Below are positions 930 to 48,825 of a DNA stretch of 64,000 nt, in pieces (the stretch's first letter is position 1; each line of letters starts with the position of its first letter). The stretch covers positions 3,224,001 through 3,288,000 of the forward strand of contig NZ_CP026514.1 of NCBI RefSeq assembly GCF_002953935.1, written 5' to 3'. Made by a program: the position numbers and the translations under genes. Under the pieces are notes generated by a model. The model made no database searches, was not told the DNA's origin, and worked only from the letters and a program-made list of their open reading frames with translations. This stretch comes from Arthrobacter sp. PGP41. Lineage in GTDB: Bacteria; Actinomycetota; Actinomycetes; Actinomycetales; Micrococcaceae.

Positions 930-2366
930 ATGGCCATTTCCCTTGCCGCCCTGCTGGGCGTGAACTCCCTGAAGCTGTCCAAGGCCGGGGTGGCCGAGAC
1001 CACCTGGCATCAGGACATCAACTGGGTGGCAGTCACGGAGTTGGAGGATCCGCACCGGTTCCTCAACGGCGGGGAACTGATCCTCACCACAGGCCTGCGC
1101 CTGCGGTCCGCGCCGGAGCAGCGGCGCTTTGTCCGGCAGGTGCAGCGCGCCGGTGCCGTGGGCATCGGCTTCGGCGTGGGCCTCTCGCACGAGACGGTCC
1201 CCCAGGCCCTGCTGGCGGAGGCGAACCGGTGGGGCCTGCCGGTGGTGGAGGTTCCCTACGAGACGCCGTTCATTGCCATCGGCAAGCTGGTGGCCGATGC
1301 CCAGTCCGCGGACCACTACGCCAAACTCGAGCGGCTGATCGCCGGGCACCAGGTGCTGGCCCGGGCCCTGCTGACCGGTGGCGGGCTCGCCGAACTCCTC
1401 AAGCACCTGGGCAGCATGCTGCGCACCGATGTTGCCCTCACCCAGTTCACGGCCCAGCTCTACAACAGCGGCGCCGATTCCCCGTCCGCGGACACCTGGT
1501 CTTCCTACCCCGTCCCCACGGGCCGGCGGGATGCCTGCACCCTCTGGGTCCGGCAGCCCTTCGAGGACTCGGGCATCATCGGGTACGCCCAGAGCCTGAT
1601 CAGCGTGGAGCTGAACAACATGGTCAAGCAGCGCCAGGCCCAGCGCGCCCTCTGCGGCCAGGTCCTGGAAGACGTGATCCACGGGGCGTTGGAAACCAGC
1701 GAGGCCCAGCGCCGCCTGGCCGGAGTGGGCGTCAACAGCACCCGGAAGAACGTGGTGCTGCTGGCCGTGTCGGCCGCCCACAACAAGGCCCTGGTGAGTA
1801 CCTCGGTGCCACGCGAACTGGAAAAGGCGGTGGCCGCCGTCGTGGGCAAGGACCTGGTGCTGGTCATTAATGACGACGGCGGCGGCGCACCTGCCCTTGC
1901 CCGGAAGCTGAGCGACCACCTGGCAGAGGCCGGCATCCACGCCACGATCGGGATCGGCGGCGCGTACACCAAGCCGAACGGCCTGCGCTGGAGCTACTTT
2001 GAGGCCCGTGACGCGGCAAGCCACGGCCTGCCCGTCAATGAGCCGGAGCGCCTCAGCCTGACATCGCTGCTCCTGGCCAGCGAGGACGTGCCGCTGGCGG
2101 ACATGGCCAACGAATCCCTGGACCCGCTGCGAACCTTTGACGCCGCCCACGGCTCGGAACTGATGGCCACGCTGGAGAGCTACCTCAACAACAACGGCTC
2201 TGTGGCCGCCGTCGCCGAGCAGCTCACCCTGCACCGGAACACGGTCCGGTACCGGCTGGCACAGATTACCGAACTGACCGGGTACGACCCCGCCGTCACC
2301 GCGGACCGCGTGCAGCTCTGGCTGGCGCTGGCCGTGGCCCGGCTGTCCGCGCGGCAGGGGAAGTAA
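930..2366 (+). CDS. PucR family transcriptional regulator
   Basis: This 478-residue protein has the PucR layout. Residues 1 to about 120 form the purine-catabolism-type N-terminal domain (GGELILTTGLRLR, then a VGIGFGVGLSHETVP stretch). A GGDEF-like central domain follows. The C-terminus is an HTH_30 helix-turn-helix with the family signature LTLHRNTVRYRLAQI near residue 440. Such proteins usually activate catabolic genes in response to a metabolite. It is transcribed divergently from the aldehyde dehydrogenase gene across a 168-bp gap, so that gene is the obvious candidate target (inference). The stop codon lies four bases before a 63-bp palindrome. Confidence 0.9.
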   Translation: MAISLAALLGVNSLKLSKAGVAETTWHQDINWVAVTELEDPHRFLNGGELILTTGLRLRSAPEQRRFVRQVQRAGAVGIGFGVGLSHETVPQALLAEANRWGLPVVEVPYETPFIAIGKLVADAQSADHYAKLERLIAGHQVLARALLTGGGLAELLKHLGSMLRTDVALTQFTAQLYNSGADSPSADTWSSYPVPTGRRDACTLWVRQPFEDSGIIGYAQSLISVELNNMVKQRQAQRALCGQVLEDVIHGALETSEAQRRLAGVGVNSTRKNVVLLAVSAAHNKALVSTSVPRELEKAVAAVVGKDLVLVINDDGGGAPALARKLSDHLAEAGIHATIGIGGAYTKPNGLRWSYFEARDAASHGLPVNEPERLSLTSLLLASEDVPLADMANESLDPLRTFDAAHGSELMATLESYLNNNGSVAAVAEQLTLHRNTVRYRLAQITELTGYDPAVTADRVQLWLALAVARLSARQGK

Positions 2367-2369
2367 CGC

Positions 2370-2432
2370 CAACGCGGGGTCACTTCCCGCCCCATAATTG
2401 CCCCTTATTGGGCGTGAAGTGACCCCGCGTTG
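2370..2432. repeat. Family A palindromic element, copy 1
   Basis: The 28-base left arm at 2370-2397 pairs with the right arm at 2405-2432 with two mismatches around a 7-base loop. The arm core is GGGGTCACTTCC. The element lies between two convergent genes. It has no T-tract, and a second copy with nearly identical arms and the same loop length sits at 10770-10832, so it is a dispersed element rather than only a local terminator. Confidence 0.85.
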
Positions 2433-2445
2433 CCCTGACTTGCCG

Positions 2446-10753: not shown

Positions 10754-10769
10754 CGCGCACGGGTTAAAG

Positions 10770-10832
10770 CAACGCGGGGTCACTTCCCGCCCAATAACGT
10801 CGGATTATCGGGCGGGAAGTGACCCCGCGTTG
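10770..10832. repeat. Family A palindromic element, copy 2
   Basis: The 28-base arms at 10770-10797 and 10805-10832 pair with one mismatch around a 7-base loop. The left arm differs from that of the copy at 2370 by one base. It again lies between convergent genes, 16 bases after one stop codon and 26 bases before the other. Confidence 0.85.
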
Positions 10833-10858
10833 CCGTGTGCGTTAGGGGTGCGTGCTTG

Positions 10859-12351: not shown

Positions 12352-12417
12352 CCCAACTAGGTAGCGCTAAGTGTCGTTATGAGGGCTCAAAACGACACTT
12401 AGCGCTACCTAGTTGGG
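12352..12417. repeat. Family B palindromic element, copy 1
   Basis: Two 32-base arms (12352-12383 and 12386-12417) pair with one mismatch and only two bases between them. The arm core is GGTAGCGCTAAGTGTCG. Other copies are at 46928 and 48760. It sits between two genes transcribed in the same direction, 6 bases after the cobA stop and 26 bases before the fprA start, so it would lie in the fprA leader if the genes are cotranscribed. Confidence 0.88.
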
Positions 12418-27222: not shown

Positions 27223-27508
27223 TTTTCAGCCATCGACCACCGGCCCGCGTTAGCCCGGAAAATCCTGTGACAGCAGAACTAACAAACAGCTTGCGCTTTG
27301 TGACAAAGCTGTCATAGACTGTTCACGGATCCGCTAAACGCCTCCGGCGGGTCTGATGCGAACGGAGAGATAGCCTCGGTTCAAAGCAACGTATGACTCG
27401 TATCGTTGCGGAGAACCGGGGCTATCCCGTTTAACCCATCGATTGCTCCGCACCTGCCGTTATGTGGCGCGAAAACGCCATCTGCACAGCAATCGATGAC
27501 ACGGAAAA
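27223..27508. other. Gene-free region with nested inverted repeats, possible structured RNA
   Basis: No coding region is supported between the AbiEi-like gene and the polyprenyl synthase gene (about 500 bases). Reading the plus strand, TTGCGC (27291), 18 bases and TAGACT (27315-27320) could be a promoter, with TGACAAAGCTGTCA in the spacer. It is followed by a stem of 14-base arms (27369-27382 with 27413-27426, one mismatch) that encloses GCAACG/CGTTGC. A second structure has 11-bp perfect arms CATCGATTGCT (27437) and AGCAATCGATG (to 27498) and an inner TGGCG/CGCCA hairpin. A small RNA is possible, but I match it to no known family. Confidence 0.4.
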
Positions 27509-27551: not shown

Positions 27552-28652
27552 TTAGCTGGCGCGGTCCACCACAGCCAGCGCGAAGTTGGACAGGGAATCC
27601 TTGACCACGCCTTCGGGCAGCGGGGCAAGGGCTGCGATGGCTTCATCGGCCCACCGGCGGGCAACAACCCAGGACTCCGCAGTCACGGGGTGCTCGCGCA
27701 GCCCGGCTACGGCCTCGGCAAGCGCCTCGTCCGAGGACAGGTCCCCGTCAATGAGCCGGAGAAGCCCGACGGCGGATTGGTCACCATCCGCGGCAGCCCT
27801 GCGCAGGAGCAGCACCGGCAGGGTGGGAACACCTTCGCGCAGGTCGGTGCCCGGCGACTTTCCGGATTTGACCTTGATCCCGGTGACATCGATGACGTCG
27901 TCCGCAAGCTGGAAGGCCACACCCACCTTCTCGCCATATTCCACCAGGACGGGCTCGAACGCGGGATCGGCGTTGGCGAAAATGGCACCGAGCTGGCCGG
28001 ACGCCGCCACGAGGGAACCGGTCTTGTCAGCAATCACGGAAAGGTAGTGCTCGATCGGATCCTCATCCGGACGCGGCCCCACGGTCTCGTGCAGCTGCCC
28101 CAGGCACAGCCGCTCGAACGTGCGCGCCTGGATGCCAAGGGCCCGCGACCCGAGTTCGGACACCAGGATCGAAGCCCGGGCGAAGATAAGATCGCCGGTG
28201 AGCACCGCCACCGAGTTGCCCCAGACCTCGTGGGCCGTGGGCGCTCCGCGGCGGAACGGGGCAGAGTCCATGACGTCGTCGTGATAAAGCGTGGCCAGGT
28301 GGGTCAGTTCAACCACGACGGCGGCCTGCACCACGGCGGGAAGGGAAGCGTCGCCGAGGTGCGCGCACAGCAGGGTCAGCAGGGGCCTGATGCGCTTGCC
28401 GCCGGCTTCGACCAGATGCCGCGACGTCGCATCAGCCAGCGGATCCGAGTTGGCGATCGCTTCGCGGAGTTTTTTCTCGACGCGGGCCAGGTTGTTGGTG
28501 ATGGCCGGGCCCAGTTCGGCGTCTCCGGCAATGGCGGCGAAGCCCGCAGGCAGCTGCAAACCCGTAGCGATGGCGGTGGTATTAAGGCTGGGTTCGGAGT
28601 CCGGCAGGCCGTGTCCGGCGTGCGTCCAGCTGTGGTCTGCGGGGTTGGTCAC
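27552..28652 (-). CDS. Polyprenyl diphosphate synthase (menaquinone side chain)
   Basis: This 366-residue trans-prenyltransferase has both Asp-rich motifs: LYHDDVMDSAPFRRG (first, near residue 133) and QLADDVIDVTG (second, near 260). GKRIRPLLTLL and GTDLREGVPTLPVLLL are further family blocks. It elongates farnesyl or geranylgeranyl diphosphate with isopentenyl diphosphate to a long chain. The company of menaquinone genes (menJ-like and menG just upstream) supports a role in the menaquinone tail. The GTG start overlaps the upstream stop as GTGA. Confidence 0.93.
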   Translation of the reverse strand: MTNPADHSWTHAGHGLPDSEPSLNTTAIATGLQLPAGFAAIAGDAELGPAITNNLARVEKKLREAIANSDPLADATSRHLVEAGGKRIRPLLTLLCAHLGDASLPAVVQAAVVVELTHLATLYHDDVMDSAPFRRGAPTAHEVWGNSVAVLTGDLIFARASILVSELGSRALGIQARTFERLCLGQLHETVGPRPDEDPIEHYLSVIADKTGSLVAASGQLGAIFANADPAFEPVLVEYGEKVGVAFQLADDVIDVTGIKVKSGKSPGTDLREGVPTLPVLLLRRAAADGDQSAVGLLRLIDGDLSSDEALAEAVAGLREHPVTAESWVVARRWADEAIAALAPLPEGVVKDSLSNFALAVVDRAS

Positions 28653-38779: not shown

Positions 38780-38786
38780 CCACACC

Positions 38787-38898
38787 CTCTCTCACTTAAT
38801 GCGCCTTTAACCCAAACGCTCTCCCACCTTTCGAACCCGGCGGGGCGAAAAGTGAGAGAGCGTTGGCCCAAAACCTGCAGGAAGTGCGAGAGCGTTGC
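38787..38898. repeat. Family D repeat cluster, downstream of phoX
   Basis: Bases 38792-38823 match the reverse complement of the 32-bp unit tandemly repeated at 41107 in about 25 of 32 positions. A hairpin follows: 38815-38833 pairs with 38846-38864 (17 of 19). Further partial units containing GAGAGCGTT end near 38896. It lies between the menD start and the phoX stop. Confidence 0.7.
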
Positions 38899-38911: not shown

Positions 38912-40984
38912 TCAGGCGTCGGTGCGGAACACCTGGATCACGGACGGGCGGGGTGCGCGTACCTGGCCGGGAGCCGGCGTCGTGCCTTCCGTGACGTAGT
39001 CCGGGAAGAAGGAAACCTGCTTCTCGAACGTGCCGTCCTCGCCCGGGTGCTGCACGGCGACGAACACGGTGCGCTCCTCATCGTGGATGATGGGGCCGCA
39101 GGTCTCGGCATCGCGCGGAACAGCCAGGAACTGCTCCACCTTCCCGCGCTCGGCTCCTTCCAAGGTGACCTTGAAGAGCCCGTCCGCGCGGCCGATGCCG
39201 GAGGGGGCGCCGTCGGTGGAAATCCAGAGGTTGCCCACGGAGTCGAACGCGAGGTTGTCCGGGCAGGAGATGGGCGAGACCTGGTCCACCGGGAAGCCGG
39301 AGAAGTAGGTGACGTCGCCCTGCTTGGGATCGCCGCAGACCATGAGCAGGTTCCAGGTGAAGGTGGTGGAGGTCTGGTCGCCGGTCTCGGTGATTTCCAC
39401 GATGTGGCCATCGCGGTTCTGGTTGCGCGGGTTGACCTCGGTGGCGCCTTCGTTCGTTCCGGTGCCGCGGTTGGAGTTGTTGGTGCACGCCACGTAGACC
39501 TTGCCCGTGTGCAGGCTGGGCTGTACGTCCTCGGCGCGGTCCATCTTGGTGGGGCCAACCTTGTCGGCAGCCAGGCGGGTGTACACCAGGACCTCTTCGA
39601 CGGACATGCCCGGAACAGCGGACTTTCCGTCTACAACCAGGGGCAGCCACTGGCCGATGCCGTCGAAGGCACCGTCCGAGGGGACGGCCCCGGTGCCGGT
39701 GATTTCAGCGGCCGGTGAGTTGCCCGTGAACTTGGCGACGTACAGGTTACCGGCGGACAGGAGGGTCATGTTGTGTTTGCGGTCGCCCTCAATGTACTTG
39801 TCCTTGGAAACGAACTTGTACAGGTAGTCGAAGCGCTCGTCGTCGCCGGAGTAGGCCACTACGTGACCGGACTCGGCGATGATGACGTTGGCACCCTCGT
39901 GCTTGAAGCGGCCCAGGGAGGAATGCTTCTTCGGGGTGGAGGTGGGATCGAAGGGGTCGACTTCCACGATCCATCCGAAGCGGTTGGCCTCGTTCTCGTA
40001 GCCGGGCTTGCGGGTGTCCCAGCGGTCCTCGTCCAGTTCCCACTTGCGGGCGGTTGGCTTGCTGGTGATGCCGTAGCGCTTGTCTCCGGCGGAAGTGCCG
40101 TTGCCGACAAAGTAGCCCTGGAAGTTTTCCTCACCGGAGAGGATGGTGCCCCAAGGGGTGGTTCCGCCGGCGCAGTTGCCCAGGGTGCCCTTGATGAAGC
40201 GGCCGTCCTTGTCCTCGACGGTCTTGACCAGTGCAGATCCTGCAGCAGGGCCGGTCAGTTCATAGACCGTGCTGTTCAGGTAGCGGCGGTTCAGTTCCGC
40301 GCCCTTGACGTAGGTCCACGGCTGGTTCTTGTTGTGGCGCTCCAGCTCCACAACGGACAGCCCGTGCGCAGCTGCTCCCACTTTGCGCTGCTGCTCGGCC
40401 GGCATGGCGGGAGGGAACATGATGGCGTCGTTGGTGTACTCGTGGTTGGAGAACAGAACGGCGCGGCGGCCCTTGCTGCCCGGGATCTCAAGGATGTCCG
40501 TGTAGTCGTTGTTGTAGCCGAACTGCCTTTCCTGGGCTGCAACCGTCTGGTTGTTCAGGTCCAGCTCCGGCGCGTCGTTGAAGATGGGGTCGCCCCAGCG
40601 GATGACCGGCTTCCAGGTGAAGCCTTCCGGCACGGTGACGGCGTCCACCATCGCATCAATCGAGGGAATGGCGGTGAACTGAAGCTTGGACTTGCCGAAG
40701 CCTTCCTTCGCTGCCTTGGAGAGGCCGGCGGCATGTGCGGAGTCCGGCGAGGTGACGGCGCTGCCGAGGACGACGGCGAGGGCACCGGCGGCGCCGAAGC
40801 CCAGGGCGGCGCGGCGGGACATGGTGGCGGAGGCGATGTCGCGGAAGTAGCTGTTGGAGCTGGTGTTGCAGACGTCGCCTGCGCAGGCGTTGTCGCACTT
40901 CAGGGCGCAGGTGACGGCGCTGCGCTTGCCCTTGGTGTGGCCGAGCATCGGCAGCAGGGTGAACTTGCGGGCAGTTTCAGACAT
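38912..40984 (-). CDS. phoX: PhoX family alkaline phosphatase, Tat-exported
   Basis: This 690-residue protein has a Tat signal that starts unusually late: SRRAALGFGAAGALAVVLGSA at about residues 55-75, after a Cys-rich N-terminal stretch (CALKCDNACAGDVC), as is usual in actinobacterial PhoX. Further blocks are FSNHEYTNDAIMFPP, NCAGGTTPWGTILSGEENFQG and TYFSGFPVDQVSPISCPDN. PhoX enzymes are Ca/Fe-dependent monoesterases that free phosphate outside the cell. The ATG at 40984 has a GGAAGG site. The gene is flanked on both sides by family D repeats. Confidence 0.92.
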   Translation of the reverse strand: MSETARKFTLLPMLGHTKGKRSAVTCALKCDNACAGDVCNTSSNSYFRDIASATMSRRAALGFGAAGALAVVLGSAVTSPDSAHAAGLSKAAKEGFGKSKLQFTAIPSIDAMVDAVTVPEGFTWKPVIRWGDPIFNDAPELDLNNQTVAAQERQFGYNNDYTDILEIPGSKGRRAVLFSNHEYTNDAIMFPPAMPAEQQRKVGAAAHGLSVVELERHNKNQPWTYVKGAELNRRYLNSTVYELTGPAAGSALVKTVEDKDGRFIKGTLGNCAGGTTPWGTILSGEENFQGYFVGNGTSAGDKRYGITSKPTARKWELDEDRWDTRKPGYENEANRFGWIVEVDPFDPTSTPKKHSSLGRFKHEGANVIIAESGHVVAYSGDDERFDYLYKFVSKDKYIEGDRKHNMTLLSAGNLYVAKFTGNSPAAEITGTGAVPSDGAFDGIGQWLPLVVDGKSAVPGMSVEEVLVYTRLAADKVGPTKMDRAEDVQPSLHTGKVYVACTNNSNRGTGTNEGATEVNPRNQNRDGHIVEITETGDQTSTTFTWNLLMVCGDPKQGDVTYFSGFPVDQVSPISCPDNLAFDSVGNLWISTDGAPSGIGRADGLFKVTLEGAERGKVEQFLAVPRDAETCGPIIHDEERTVFVAVQHPGEDGTFEKQVSFFPDYVTEGTTPAPGQVRAPRPSVIQVFRTDA

Positions 40985-46411: not shown

Positions 46412-46912
46412 ATGGCACCAACAAACACCTTGGACATCAGCTTTCCCACCGACGAGGAAATCCTCATCACGCGCACGGTCAACGCACCACGGCATCTCGT
46501 CTACAGGGCCTGGACCACGTCGGAATTGGTCAGGAGGTGGTGGCCGGGCCGGCGCGGCGAAATGACGGTGGCGGACATGGACTTCAGGGTAGGCGGGGCC
46601 TGGCGGTACGTCATGGTGGCGCACGGGGAATTCGAGGTGGCCTTCCACGGGACGTACCGGGAGATCGTCCCGAACGAGCGGATCGTCCACACCGAGGTGA
46701 TGGAGACCCCGGGCGCGCTGCCGGACAGTGAGGAGGGTGCGGTGGTCAACACGGTCACCTTCGAGGAGGCCGACGGCGGCGCCACCGTGGTGCGCATCCG
46801 CACCAACGCCGGCAGCAAGGAAGTCCGGGACAGGATCGCGAAGTCCGGCATGGAGGGCGGCGTGCGCGAGCAGTTCGAGATCATCGAGGAGCTGGCGGCT
46901 GCGCTGGGCTGA
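46412..46912 (+). CDS. SRPBCC/AHSA1 domain protein
   Basis: This 166-residue protein has the Aha1-like pattern: ITRTVNAPRHLVYRAWTTSELVRRWW, FRVGGAWRYVM, FHGTYREIVPNERIVHTEV and a final amphipathic helix with EGGVREQFEIIEELAAAL. It follows the ArsR gene in one operon. The family binds hydrophobic ligands; the exact ligand is unknown. A family B palindrome begins 16 bases after the stop. Confidence 0.9.
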   Translation: MAPTNTLDISFPTDEEILITRTVNAPRHLVYRAWTTSELVRRWWPGRRGEMTVADMDFRVGGAWRYVMVAHGEFEVAFHGTYREIVPNERIVHTEVMETPGALPDSEEGAVVNTVTFEEADGGATVVRIRTNAGSKEVRDRIAKSGMEGGVREQFEIIEELAAALG

Positions 46913-46927
46913 CCTCCCACCCGCACT

Positions 46928-46993
46928 CCCAACTAGGTAGCGCTAAGTGTCGTTCTGGAGGGTCAAAACGACACTTGGCGCTACCTACTTGGG
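46928..46993. repeat. Family B palindromic element, copy 2
   Basis: The 32-base arms at 46928-46959 and 46962-46993 pair with four mismatches around two bases. It matches the copies at 12352 and 48760. It lies between the AHSA1 and chrB genes, 27 bases before the chrB operator. Confidence 0.85.
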
Positions 46994-47019
46994 AGGGAGG
47001 CAACCCGCACTCCTGATCC

Positions 47020-47044: not shown

Positions 47045-47587
47045 GTGACTTCCCTTGAACAGGTGCCCTGGCTGGTGATGCTCGTGCAGGTGCCCTCGGA
47101 GCCTTCGCGGCACCGGGTGGCGGTCTGGCGTGAGCTCCGGCGCTTCGGCGCGGTCCCCGTCGGGCAGGGCGCCTGGACGGCGCCCGACGTGCCGGCCTGC
47201 CGCGAGGGTGCGAAGAAGGCCAAGGAGCTGGCCGGCGCCGGAAACGGCGAAGTGCTCCTGCTCACCACCGCGCCGGCCGACGACGACGCCGCCAGGCTGC
47301 GTGAACTCTTCACTGCTGCACGCGCGGAGGAGTGGGCGGAATTCGTTGCCGACTGCGGCAAGTTCACCGACGAAATCGCGAAGGAAATCGCCAAGCGGAA
47401 ATTCACGCTGGCCGAGCTTGAGGAGGAGGAGCAGAGCCTGGACCGGCTGCGCCGCTGGTTCCGCGCCCTCCGGACCAAGGACGTCTTCGGCAGCCCGGCT
47501 TCGGCGGGTGCCGAGCGGAAGCTCGGTGACTGCGCCGCCGCCCTGGACGGTTTTGCCGCCCTCGTCTACGGCGAGGTGCACTCGTGA
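47045..47587 (+). CDS. ChrB N-terminal domain protein
   Basis: This 180-residue protein resembles the N-terminal domain of chromate resistance protein ChrB: WLVMLVQVPSEPSRHRVAVWRELRRFGAV, a QGAWTAPD block, then a long helix with FVADCGKFTDEIAKEIAKRKF. The domain can sense chromate and regulate resistance genes. The MFS gene overlaps its stop by four bases (GTGA), so the pair is coupled. A palindromic operator lies directly upstream. No ChrA gene is present, so the stress handled may be different. Confidence 0.85.
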   Translation: MTSLEQVPWLVMLVQVPSEPSRHRVAVWRELRRFGAVPVGQGAWTAPDVPACREGAKKAKELAGAGNGEVLLLTTAPADDDAARLRELFTAARAEEWAEFVADCGKFTDEIAKEIAKRKFTLAELEEEEQSLDRLRRWFRALRTKDVFGSPASAGAERKLGDCAAALDGFAALVYGEVHS

Positions 47588-48768
47588 CTGCCGCCCGCAC
47601 CGCTGCAGCCAAGGCCGCCAGCGTCTCCGCGCCCCTCTACGCCGCCGGGTTCGTGACGGCATTCGGTGCCCACAGCATCGCGGCGGGCCTGGGCGCGCAA
47701 AGCGGGAACATCGGCCTGACGCTGCTTAACTTGGGCATCCTCCTCGCCCTGTACGACGTTTCCGAGGTCTTCCTCAAGCCGGTCTTCGGCGCCCTGAGCG
47801 ACAGGATCGGCGCCAAACCCGTCATCGTCGGCGGGCTGCTCGCTTTTGCCGCACTGTCCCTGATCGGGCTCTGGGCGGCGGACCCGCTGATGCTGGCCCT
47901 GGCGCGGCTCGGCCAGGGCGCAGCGGCATCCGCGTTCTCGCCGGCATCCTCCGCCATGGTGGCCCGGCTGGCACGCGGCGGGAATGCGGGCACGTATTTC
48001 GGCAGGTACGGGTCATGGAAAAGCCTGGGCTACATCATCGGGCCGCTGCTGGGCGCGGGCCTGATCTGGGCCGGCGGCTTCGCCCTGCTTTTCGGCACCC
48101 TGTCCGTCCTCGCGGCAGCCACGGCAGCGTGGGTCCTGCTGGCTGTGCCGCACTTGGAACCCCTCCCCCGCCAGCGCTACACCGTGCTGGACCTCGCACG
48201 GCAGGTTGGCGAGCGGCGCTTCCTCGTGCCCACGCTGGTCCTGGCGGCATCGACGGCGGCGCTCGGAGCCGCCGTCGGATTCCTCCCCGCGCTGGCCACG
48301 AGGCACGGCCTGGACGCCGTCGCCGGCACCGCCGCGGTCAGCCTCCTGGCGCTCGGCTCCGTCCTGACCCAGCCGCGGATCGGCCGGCTGCGGGACCGGA
48401 ACCGCATCACGGACAACAAGGGCACGACGGCGGGACTCCTCCTCATCGCGGCAGGCGTCGGCGTGCTCGCGGCCGCCCCGGGCCCGGTCACCATCTTCCT
48501 TGCCGCTGCAGCAATCGGAGTCGGCGTGGGCGCGGCAACCCCGCTGGCTTTCGCGCACCTCGCGGACACCACCCCGCCCGAGCGCATGGGCCGCACCATG
48601 GGCTCTGCCGAACTGGGGCGCGAACTCGGCGACGCCGGCGGGCCGCTGCTGGTAGGCGGCGTGGCCACGCTGACCGCCCTGCCCTTCGGACTCGGGGCCC
48701 TCGCGCTGTTGATTGCAGCGGCCAGCTTCCCCAGCCTCGCCCCGGCCAGCCCGCCCCGGCCCAACTAG
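47584..48768 (+). CDS. MFS transporter coupled to ChrB
   Basis: This 394-residue, 12-helix protein has the MFS loop 2-3 motif FGALSDRIGAKPV and the second-half counterpart in PRIGRLRDRNRITDN. It overlaps the ChrB gene by GTGA, and such ChrB-MFS pairs recur in actinobacteria, suggesting toxic-anion efflux (inference). The last two residues and the stop (Pro-Asn-TAG) are encoded by the left arm of a family B palindrome, so the native C-terminus may have been replaced. Confidence 0.88.
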   Translation: MTAARTAAAKAASVSAPLYAAGFVTAFGAHSIAAGLGAQSGNIGLTLLNLGILLALYDVSEVFLKPVFGALSDRIGAKPVIVGGLLAFAALSLIGLWAADPLMLALARLGQGAAASAFSPASSAMVARLARGGNAGTYFGRYGSWKSLGYIIGPLLGAGLIWAGGFALLFGTLSVLAAATAAWVLLAVPHLEPLPRQRYTVLDLARQVGERRFLVPTLVLAASTAALGAAVGFLPALATRHGLDAVAGTAAVSLLALGSVLTQPRIGRLRDRNRITDNKGTTAGLLLIAAGVGVLAAAPGPVTIFLAAAAIGVGVGAATPLAFAHLADTTPPERMGRTMGSAELGRELGDAGGPLLVGGVATLTALPFGLGALALLIAAASFPSLAPASPPRPN

Positions 48769-48825
48769 GTAGCGCCAAGTGTCGTTATGAGCCTCCAAAA
48801 CGACACTTGGCGCTACCTAGTTGGG
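48760..48825. repeat. Family B palindromic element, copy 3
   Basis: Arms 48760-48791 and 48794-48825 are each 32 bases, with two bases between. The TAG stop of the MFS gene is at 48766-48768 inside the left arm. The PAP2 gene starts 39 bases downstream. Confidence 0.88.

Follow-up and report, generated by a model that had tools for sequence, protein, structure and literature searches.

A REP-Like Palindrome Family at the 3' Ends of Arthrobacter Genes

Three near-perfect palindromes of 66 bp in the window (the whole stretch of 64,000 nucleotides analyzed here) are part of a family, designated family B, that has 46 copies in its own chromosome (G000; 4,270,237 bp, one contig). Family B copies belong to the gene that precedes them, contrary to the preliminary description of this DNA. 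In our judgment there is roughly an even chance that the family, as its sequences suggest, is a REP-like 3'-end hairpin without RAYT, homogenized at the DNA level and probably ending or protecting the mRNA of the upstream gene.

Results

Palindromes in the window

The positions of the three family B palindromes were confirmed and are given in Table 1 together with those of two further families, D and A. The neighboring genes were named by Pfam matches (tetrapyrrole methylase with an NAD-binding domain, pyridine nucleotide-disulphide oxidoreductase, AHSA1, ChrB_N, MFS and PAP2).

Table 1. Palindromes of families B, D and A in the window and their neighboring genes
Feature	Position	Strand or form	Upstream or nearest gene	Next gene
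Family B, copy 1	12352..12417	transcribed strand minus	6 nt past stop of tetrapyrrole methylase (CysG-like) gene	pyridine-nucleotide-disulphide oxidoreductase (FprA-like) gene
Family B, copy 2	46928..46993		15 nt past stop of AHSA1-domain gene (46412-46912)	ChrB_N gene (47045-47587)
Family B, copy 3	48760..48825		MFS gene 47584-48768, whose stop codon is bases 7-9 of the element (TAG)	PAP2 gene
Family D (CATCGATTGCTCC outer stem)	27437..27498	imperfect	53 nt from stop of gene 27552-28652 (-)	
Family A (GCAACGCGGGGTCACTTCC core)	2358..2444		between convergent genes, overlaps the left gene's end	
Family A, second copy	10769..10833		between convergent genes, which end 15 and 25 nt away	

The arms were originally described as 32 bases long with two bases between them. 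In a repeat search this holds for copy 1 (97% complementary), but copy 3 has 30-nt arms (97% complementary) separated by 6 nt, and copy 2, the least perfect of the three, has 37-nt arms over 46921-47000 (86% complementary), also 6 nt apart. Folded as RNA, the three copies have energies of -46 to -55 kcal/mol, which is 10 to 14 SD lower than for dinucleotide shuffles; because none of 200 shuffles is as stable, the palindromes are not due to chance. The single-strand fold is a stem of approximately 27 bp with a small loop. The family consensus reads CCCAACT, five variable bases, GC, six variable bases, TGTCGTT and the loop, followed by the mirror image, so that its two ends are CCCAAC and GTTGGG. 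No Rfam family reached its gathering score in the window.

The next start codon lies 26, 51 and 39 nt away, as first described, if the first in-frame starts are used, but the gene caller places it later for two of the copies. What had been missed is that the upstream stop is more tightly linked, at 6 nt in copy 1, 15 nt in copy 2 and inside the element in copy 3. All ten window palindromes checked, from several families, lie within 53 nt of a stop. The lack of a T-tract was borne out after each of the three copies. It extends to the pooled outward flanks of the family, which are G-rich and have a T frequency of 0.06-0.29 at each of 16 positions; read through the element, the pooled flanks are C-rich before it and G-rich after it.

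In other species the copy-1 site holds family D in place of family B. Family A (the two window copies, L125 in G030 and L114 in G004) resembles family B in lying at gene 3' ends, and occupies a family B site in another species. A third, looser palindrome (AAAGTGAGAGAGCGTT motif) is found at 38784-38895, 16 nt past the stop of gene 38912-40984 (-).

Copy number and distribution

The 46 copies in G000 comprise 40 distinct places found by BLAST of the 66-mer (40 of 48 candidates scored) and six more found by pattern. The core pattern has 49 sites. Sorted by eye, 45 of these belong to family B, including a strongly diverged copy, and three to family D, and the last is a chance match; one BLAST copy with an extra loop base escapes the pattern and brings the total to 46. 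A half-pattern gives 41 forward and 40 reverse sites, nearly all of them paired, with three places on one strand only. Family B copies occur as complete palindromes, and solitary arms are few at most. Approximately 0.9 Mb of the chromosome (G000:C1, about 1.43-2.36 Mb) has no family B copy; this is perhaps the terminus region.

Matches to family B occur in 50 of 99 sampled genomes, all within the 61 of its own genus (its own genome included), and in none of the 38 sampled from other families of the order. In a family-wide sample of 295 genomes, 22 have the strict core pattern, which misses variant stems. The genus accounts for 16 of these (24 genomes sampled); the other 6 are among 271 genomes outside the genus and fall in 2 of 31 other genera. 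Family B is common in Arthrobacter and Pseudarthrobacter and patchy elsewhere in the bacterial family. A scan of named genomes found at least 120 stretches with the element. Among the matches listed (80 of these), the titles are mostly Arthrobacter and Pseudarthrobacter, together with two Sinomonas, one Micrococcaceae metagenome bin and Microbacterium sorbitolivorans. The Microbacterium locus (L190:4140-4620) is a tandem array of approximately six hairpins with the tip GTCGTT..AACGAC, as in family B, and the outer stem GGGATGC. Copy number ranges from 0 to 82 among the genomes counted. Three plasmids of Arthrobacter or Paenarthrobacter carry the element, and there was no match among 50,697 phage records.

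The number of copies in the chromosome and the differences in presence between species agree with the initial proposal of a dispersed short REP-like family. Its alternative, local structures restricted to three sites and conserved in distant genera, is not what we find, yet copies do recur at orthologous positions in congeneric species.

Position relative to genes

Genes were called by a codon-usage script, and one site (aceA-aceB) was checked against plasmid annotation. The tabulation covers the 201 copies that are flanked on both sides by a called gene, after removal of copies that lack the end motif or either neighbor; the 201 copies are not independent, as many of the genomes are related. 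The flanking genes are tandem in 127 copies, convergent in 68 and divergent in 6. In the relative G102 (800 kb, 678 gene pairs) the baseline is 468 tandem, 106 convergent and 104 divergent pairs. The earlier statement that the copies are not simple convergent terminators, drawn from three copies between tandem genes, was therefore a small-sample effect.

At 195 copies a gene ends at the element, which starts no more than 15 nt from the stop in 161 and no more than 30 nt in 176; the gene's own stop lies inside the element in 39. An action on the following gene, as had been suggested, is not supported by the tandem copies. In 115 of these 127 the upstream stop is closer to the element than the downstream start is; the median distances are 11 nt to the stop and 71 nt to the start. 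Of the G000 copies (44 of 46 tabulated), 27 are tandem, 14 convergent and 3 divergent, and 26 of the 27 tandem copies are nearer to the stop (p = 4e-7). According to the PLSDB annotation of two plasmids, the distance is 8 nt from the aceA stop to the start of the element and 20 nt from its end to aceB. A family B element occupies this aceA-aceB site in two named chromosomes as well as in G000, G012, G042 and G045.

Bases 7-9 are a stop codon in 96 of 106 arms in G012 and in 73 of 88 arms in G000. Selection for a stop at these bases is not claimed, since in G012 TAA (9 arms) is as rare as TGG (10 arms), which fits two arm subtypes (TAG and TGA) as well as it fits selection.

Site histories between genomes

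A gene neighboring copy 1 was found in all 81 genomes of the genus (by a partial or weak match in some), and the site could be read in 70: 28 have family B, 22 have family D and 20 are empty or other. On a weakly supported tree of the neighboring gene (30 of the 70 genomes; 7 of 27 branches starred), the B, D and empty states are unclustered, requiring 13 changes against a shuffled mean of 13.6. This scatter may reflect exchange of the stretch between species as well as gain and loss. At the copy-3 site, family B is present in G000, G107, G004 and G001, only its two ends are left in G102, and it is absent in other genomes; at the copy-2 site, family A takes the place of B in G004. Several palindrome families take turns at the same actinobacterial gene ends.

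At the copy-1 site, 18 of 27 family B loops are GAGGGCTC, compared with 22 of 145 in other copies (either strand), and they are enclosed by stems of many kinds. In these stems 667 of 729 cells are paired, and both sides have changed in 15 of 27 pairs. A loop ending in GGCTCATAA is common to B and D at this site. This may point to an exchange of outer stems around an older loop, but such loops occur elsewhere too.

In a comparison with the close relative G102, 17 of 49 G000 sites tested could be aligned, the remainder being mostly outside the 800 kb fetched. Twelve of the 17 are filled in G102 (11 B, 1 D) and five were labelled empty; of these five, one is a clear and one a probable remnant of internal deletion, one appears to be empty and two align poorly. 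For family B sites only, 11 of the 16 that can be aligned are filled in both. Two B copies in G102 are absent from G000, where one site has ten other bases and the other differs also in its C-rich and G-rich flanks. At the distance between these two genomes most alignable copies are inherited and loss is visible, while clean insertion is not proven. At L393 (near G102:C1:3975742) and L403, the C-rich left flank of the B copy mirrors the G-rich right flank (CCCCACCACCC, GGGTGGTGGGG); the left part is missing in G000, a picture that would fit template switching.

Stems against loops

We compared stems over 26 positions and loops over 8 after removal of D-like copies (four from the G000 set). Within a genome the stem difference is 0.12 in G000 (44 copies), 0.18 in G012 (53), 0.20 in G017 (7) and 0.26 in G020 (7). 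Between genomes it rises to 0.59 (G000-G012), 0.56 (G000-G017), 0.38 (G000-G020), 0.43 (G020-G012) and 0.42 (G020-G017). It is only 0.20 between G012 and G017, a close pair with a common stem type. Loop differences are 0.26-0.34 within and between genomes alike (e.g., 0.32 in G000, 0.26 in G012 and 0.32 between them). In 14 orthologous pairs matched on both flanks, the G000 set of which still contained some family D copies, stems differ about as much as when the pairs are shuffled (13.50 vs 13.56), and loops are slightly closer (2.64 vs 3.19, p = 0.03).

The two arms of an element match each other better than arms shuffled between elements do. The mean number of mismatches is 1.16 against 1.68 in G000 and 2.21 of 13 against 2.83 in G012, a difference reached by 0 of 2000 shuffles in either genome; with D-like copies kept in, the G000 values were 1.25 and 2.80, so that the effect shrinks on their removal. 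Mixed arms are common in G012. We read these patterns as stems homogenized across the genome, partly arm by arm, around loops that keep some site identity.

Searches for a mobilizing enzyme and for RNA pairing

The Y1_Tnp domain (REP transposase, RAYT) was not found in G000 and is absent from 80 of 81 genomes of the genus; controls were positive in 5 of 14 named genomes. Both matches among the 81 lie in one species (G032:C169:14061-14423 and C38:8682-9044; L181, L182). Given this absence, present-day mobilization by a RAYT is not supported, and the GTAG (or CGTC) tag of RAYT-type REPs is not seen at either consensus end. Target-site duplications of 2-9 bp are not in excess among 170 distinct copies (for 1 bp, 49 were observed and 40 expected), so DDE-type insertion, as of a MITE, is not supported either. 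No larger parent element with family B arms was found in 362 fetched loci (1.64 Mb, overlaps included).

RNA pairing under selection would give more G-U than A-C mismatches on the sense strand. No such excess was found in the 127 tandem copies (84 G-U, 103 A-C; p = 0.19, in a test that is weak for so stable a stem), which leaves room for a DNA-level process. RNA pairing as what keeps the palindrome is not supported by these mismatches.

Discussion

By likeness to REP elements, which affect the 3' end of upstream mRNA, an effect of this kind is the most likely function of family B. Once transcribed, the element would fold into a hairpin of approximately 27 bp and end or protect the mRNA of the upstream gene. 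Since it would do so in either direction, it may be tolerated or favored at 3' ends only. The start within 15 nt of a stop in 161 of 195 copies, the rarity between divergent genes and the occurrence of B, D, A or nothing at single sites all count for a 3'-end hairpin. The absence of a T-tract means that these are not textbook intrinsic terminators, and copies within closely spaced tandem pairs such as aceA-aceB, for which complete termination would presumably be a burden, count against termination. The palindrome may be kept perfect and homogeneous by a process at the DNA level, i.e., template switching between arms, conversion between copies or a co-evolving arm-binding factor; we infer that copies could be exchanged during repair of hairpin breaks. 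The family would then spread independently of a RAYT transposase.

Like the REP, BIME and REPIN elements that accompany RAYT in Enterobacteria and Pseudomonas, family B consists of short palindromes that are scattered outside genes, lie at 3' ends, seldom separate divergent genes and show no target-site duplication, and there are several families per genome. Unlike them, it is 66 bp long and nearly symmetrical, has no GTAG end tag, usually has a stop codon at bases 7-9, and occurs in a genus where 80 of 81 genomes lack the Y1 domain. DNA-uptake signals also occur singly, whereas solitary arms of family B are almost absent. Paired uptake sequences serve as terminators (PMC2267715); they and intrinsic or bidirectional terminators share with family B a hairpin right after the stop, a place also between convergent genes and, in the former, a repeated sequence. 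Family B differs from these terminators in having no T-tract and in its stem of approximately 27 bp. The CGTC-tagged REPs and Rickettsia palindromic elements (PMC3733652) have their CGTC tag at one end, while family B has no unpaired end tag. Template switching is a mutational process that keeps hairpins paired without selection (PMC8794818), and family B mismatches unbiased to G-U would fit it; acting within one hairpin, it cannot alone make dispersed copies alike.

The preliminary description had suggested a short non-autonomous mobile or REP-like element. A dispersed REP-like family with presence/absence differences between species is the part of that proposal that stands, while the evidence for mobility is indirect. 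A non-autonomous element (REPIN- or MITE-like) would have its folded arms recognized by a transposase, and its place after the stop would be that of a harmless insertion without host function. Dozens of copies per genome (0 to 82 among genomes counted), the three plasmids, the patchy taxonomy, the G102 copies lacking in G000 and the different families at a single site are what one would expect of it. We nevertheless consider it rather unlikely, as it has to do without Y1_Tnp in 80 of 81 genomes, a 2-9 bp target-site duplication and a parent element with B arms in 1.64 Mb of fetched loci. Moreover, 11 of 16 alignable B sites are common to G102 and the rest include one clear and one probable internal-deletion remnant, and harmlessness alone leaves unexplained why 161 of 195 copies lie so near a stop (within 15 nt). 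The ends of family B also resemble the boxes of integron attC sites, RYYYAAC and GTTRRRY, and attC likewise follows a stop codon. That the copies are relics of such sites is extremely improbable: the palindrome is nearly perfect, without consistent extra unpaired bases (97% arms in copies 1 and 3; 667 of 729 cells paired), the copies are dispersed singly and not in cassette arrays, and families D and A, with other ends, occupy the same sites.

Genome-specific stems around unspecific loops could also arise if the element were a duplex binding site with two half-sites for a sequence-specific protein (a roadblock terminator, or a nucleoid or segregation factor). The specificity of this protein would be the species' own, so that all stems in a genome change together and the loop is a free spacer. 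Partly exchangeable left and right arms (2.21 against 2.83 mismatches of 13 in G012), symmetrical mismatches and the conserved blocks CCCAACT, GC and TGTCGTT would agree with such a site. There is, however, no candidate protein, the copies are whole palindromes with few solitary arms at most, the conserved blocks and variable stems are both longer than most binding sites, and gene conversion or template switching can yield the same pattern; we regard a protein site as improbable. It is tempting to go further and picture a factor-guided class of interchangeable gene-end signals, in which a putative trans-acting factor with a species-own arm specificity reads both arms and the arms are exchangeable modules. 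The several palindrome families would then compete for the same 3'-end sites and would not be self-sufficient RNA terminators. This idea, too, we hold to be doubtful.

No published description of family B was found in literature searches; the count table of RepRanger (PMC12306157) includes one Arthrobacter species. REP-like repeats are usually explained by RAYT. Family B offers a case that lacks RAYT and can be measured, with stems that change in concert across a genome and loops that do not. It separates the question of how copies are kept alike from that of their insertion, and whether gene conversion, template switching or a co-evolving binding factor is at work can be tested in these harmless soil bacteria.
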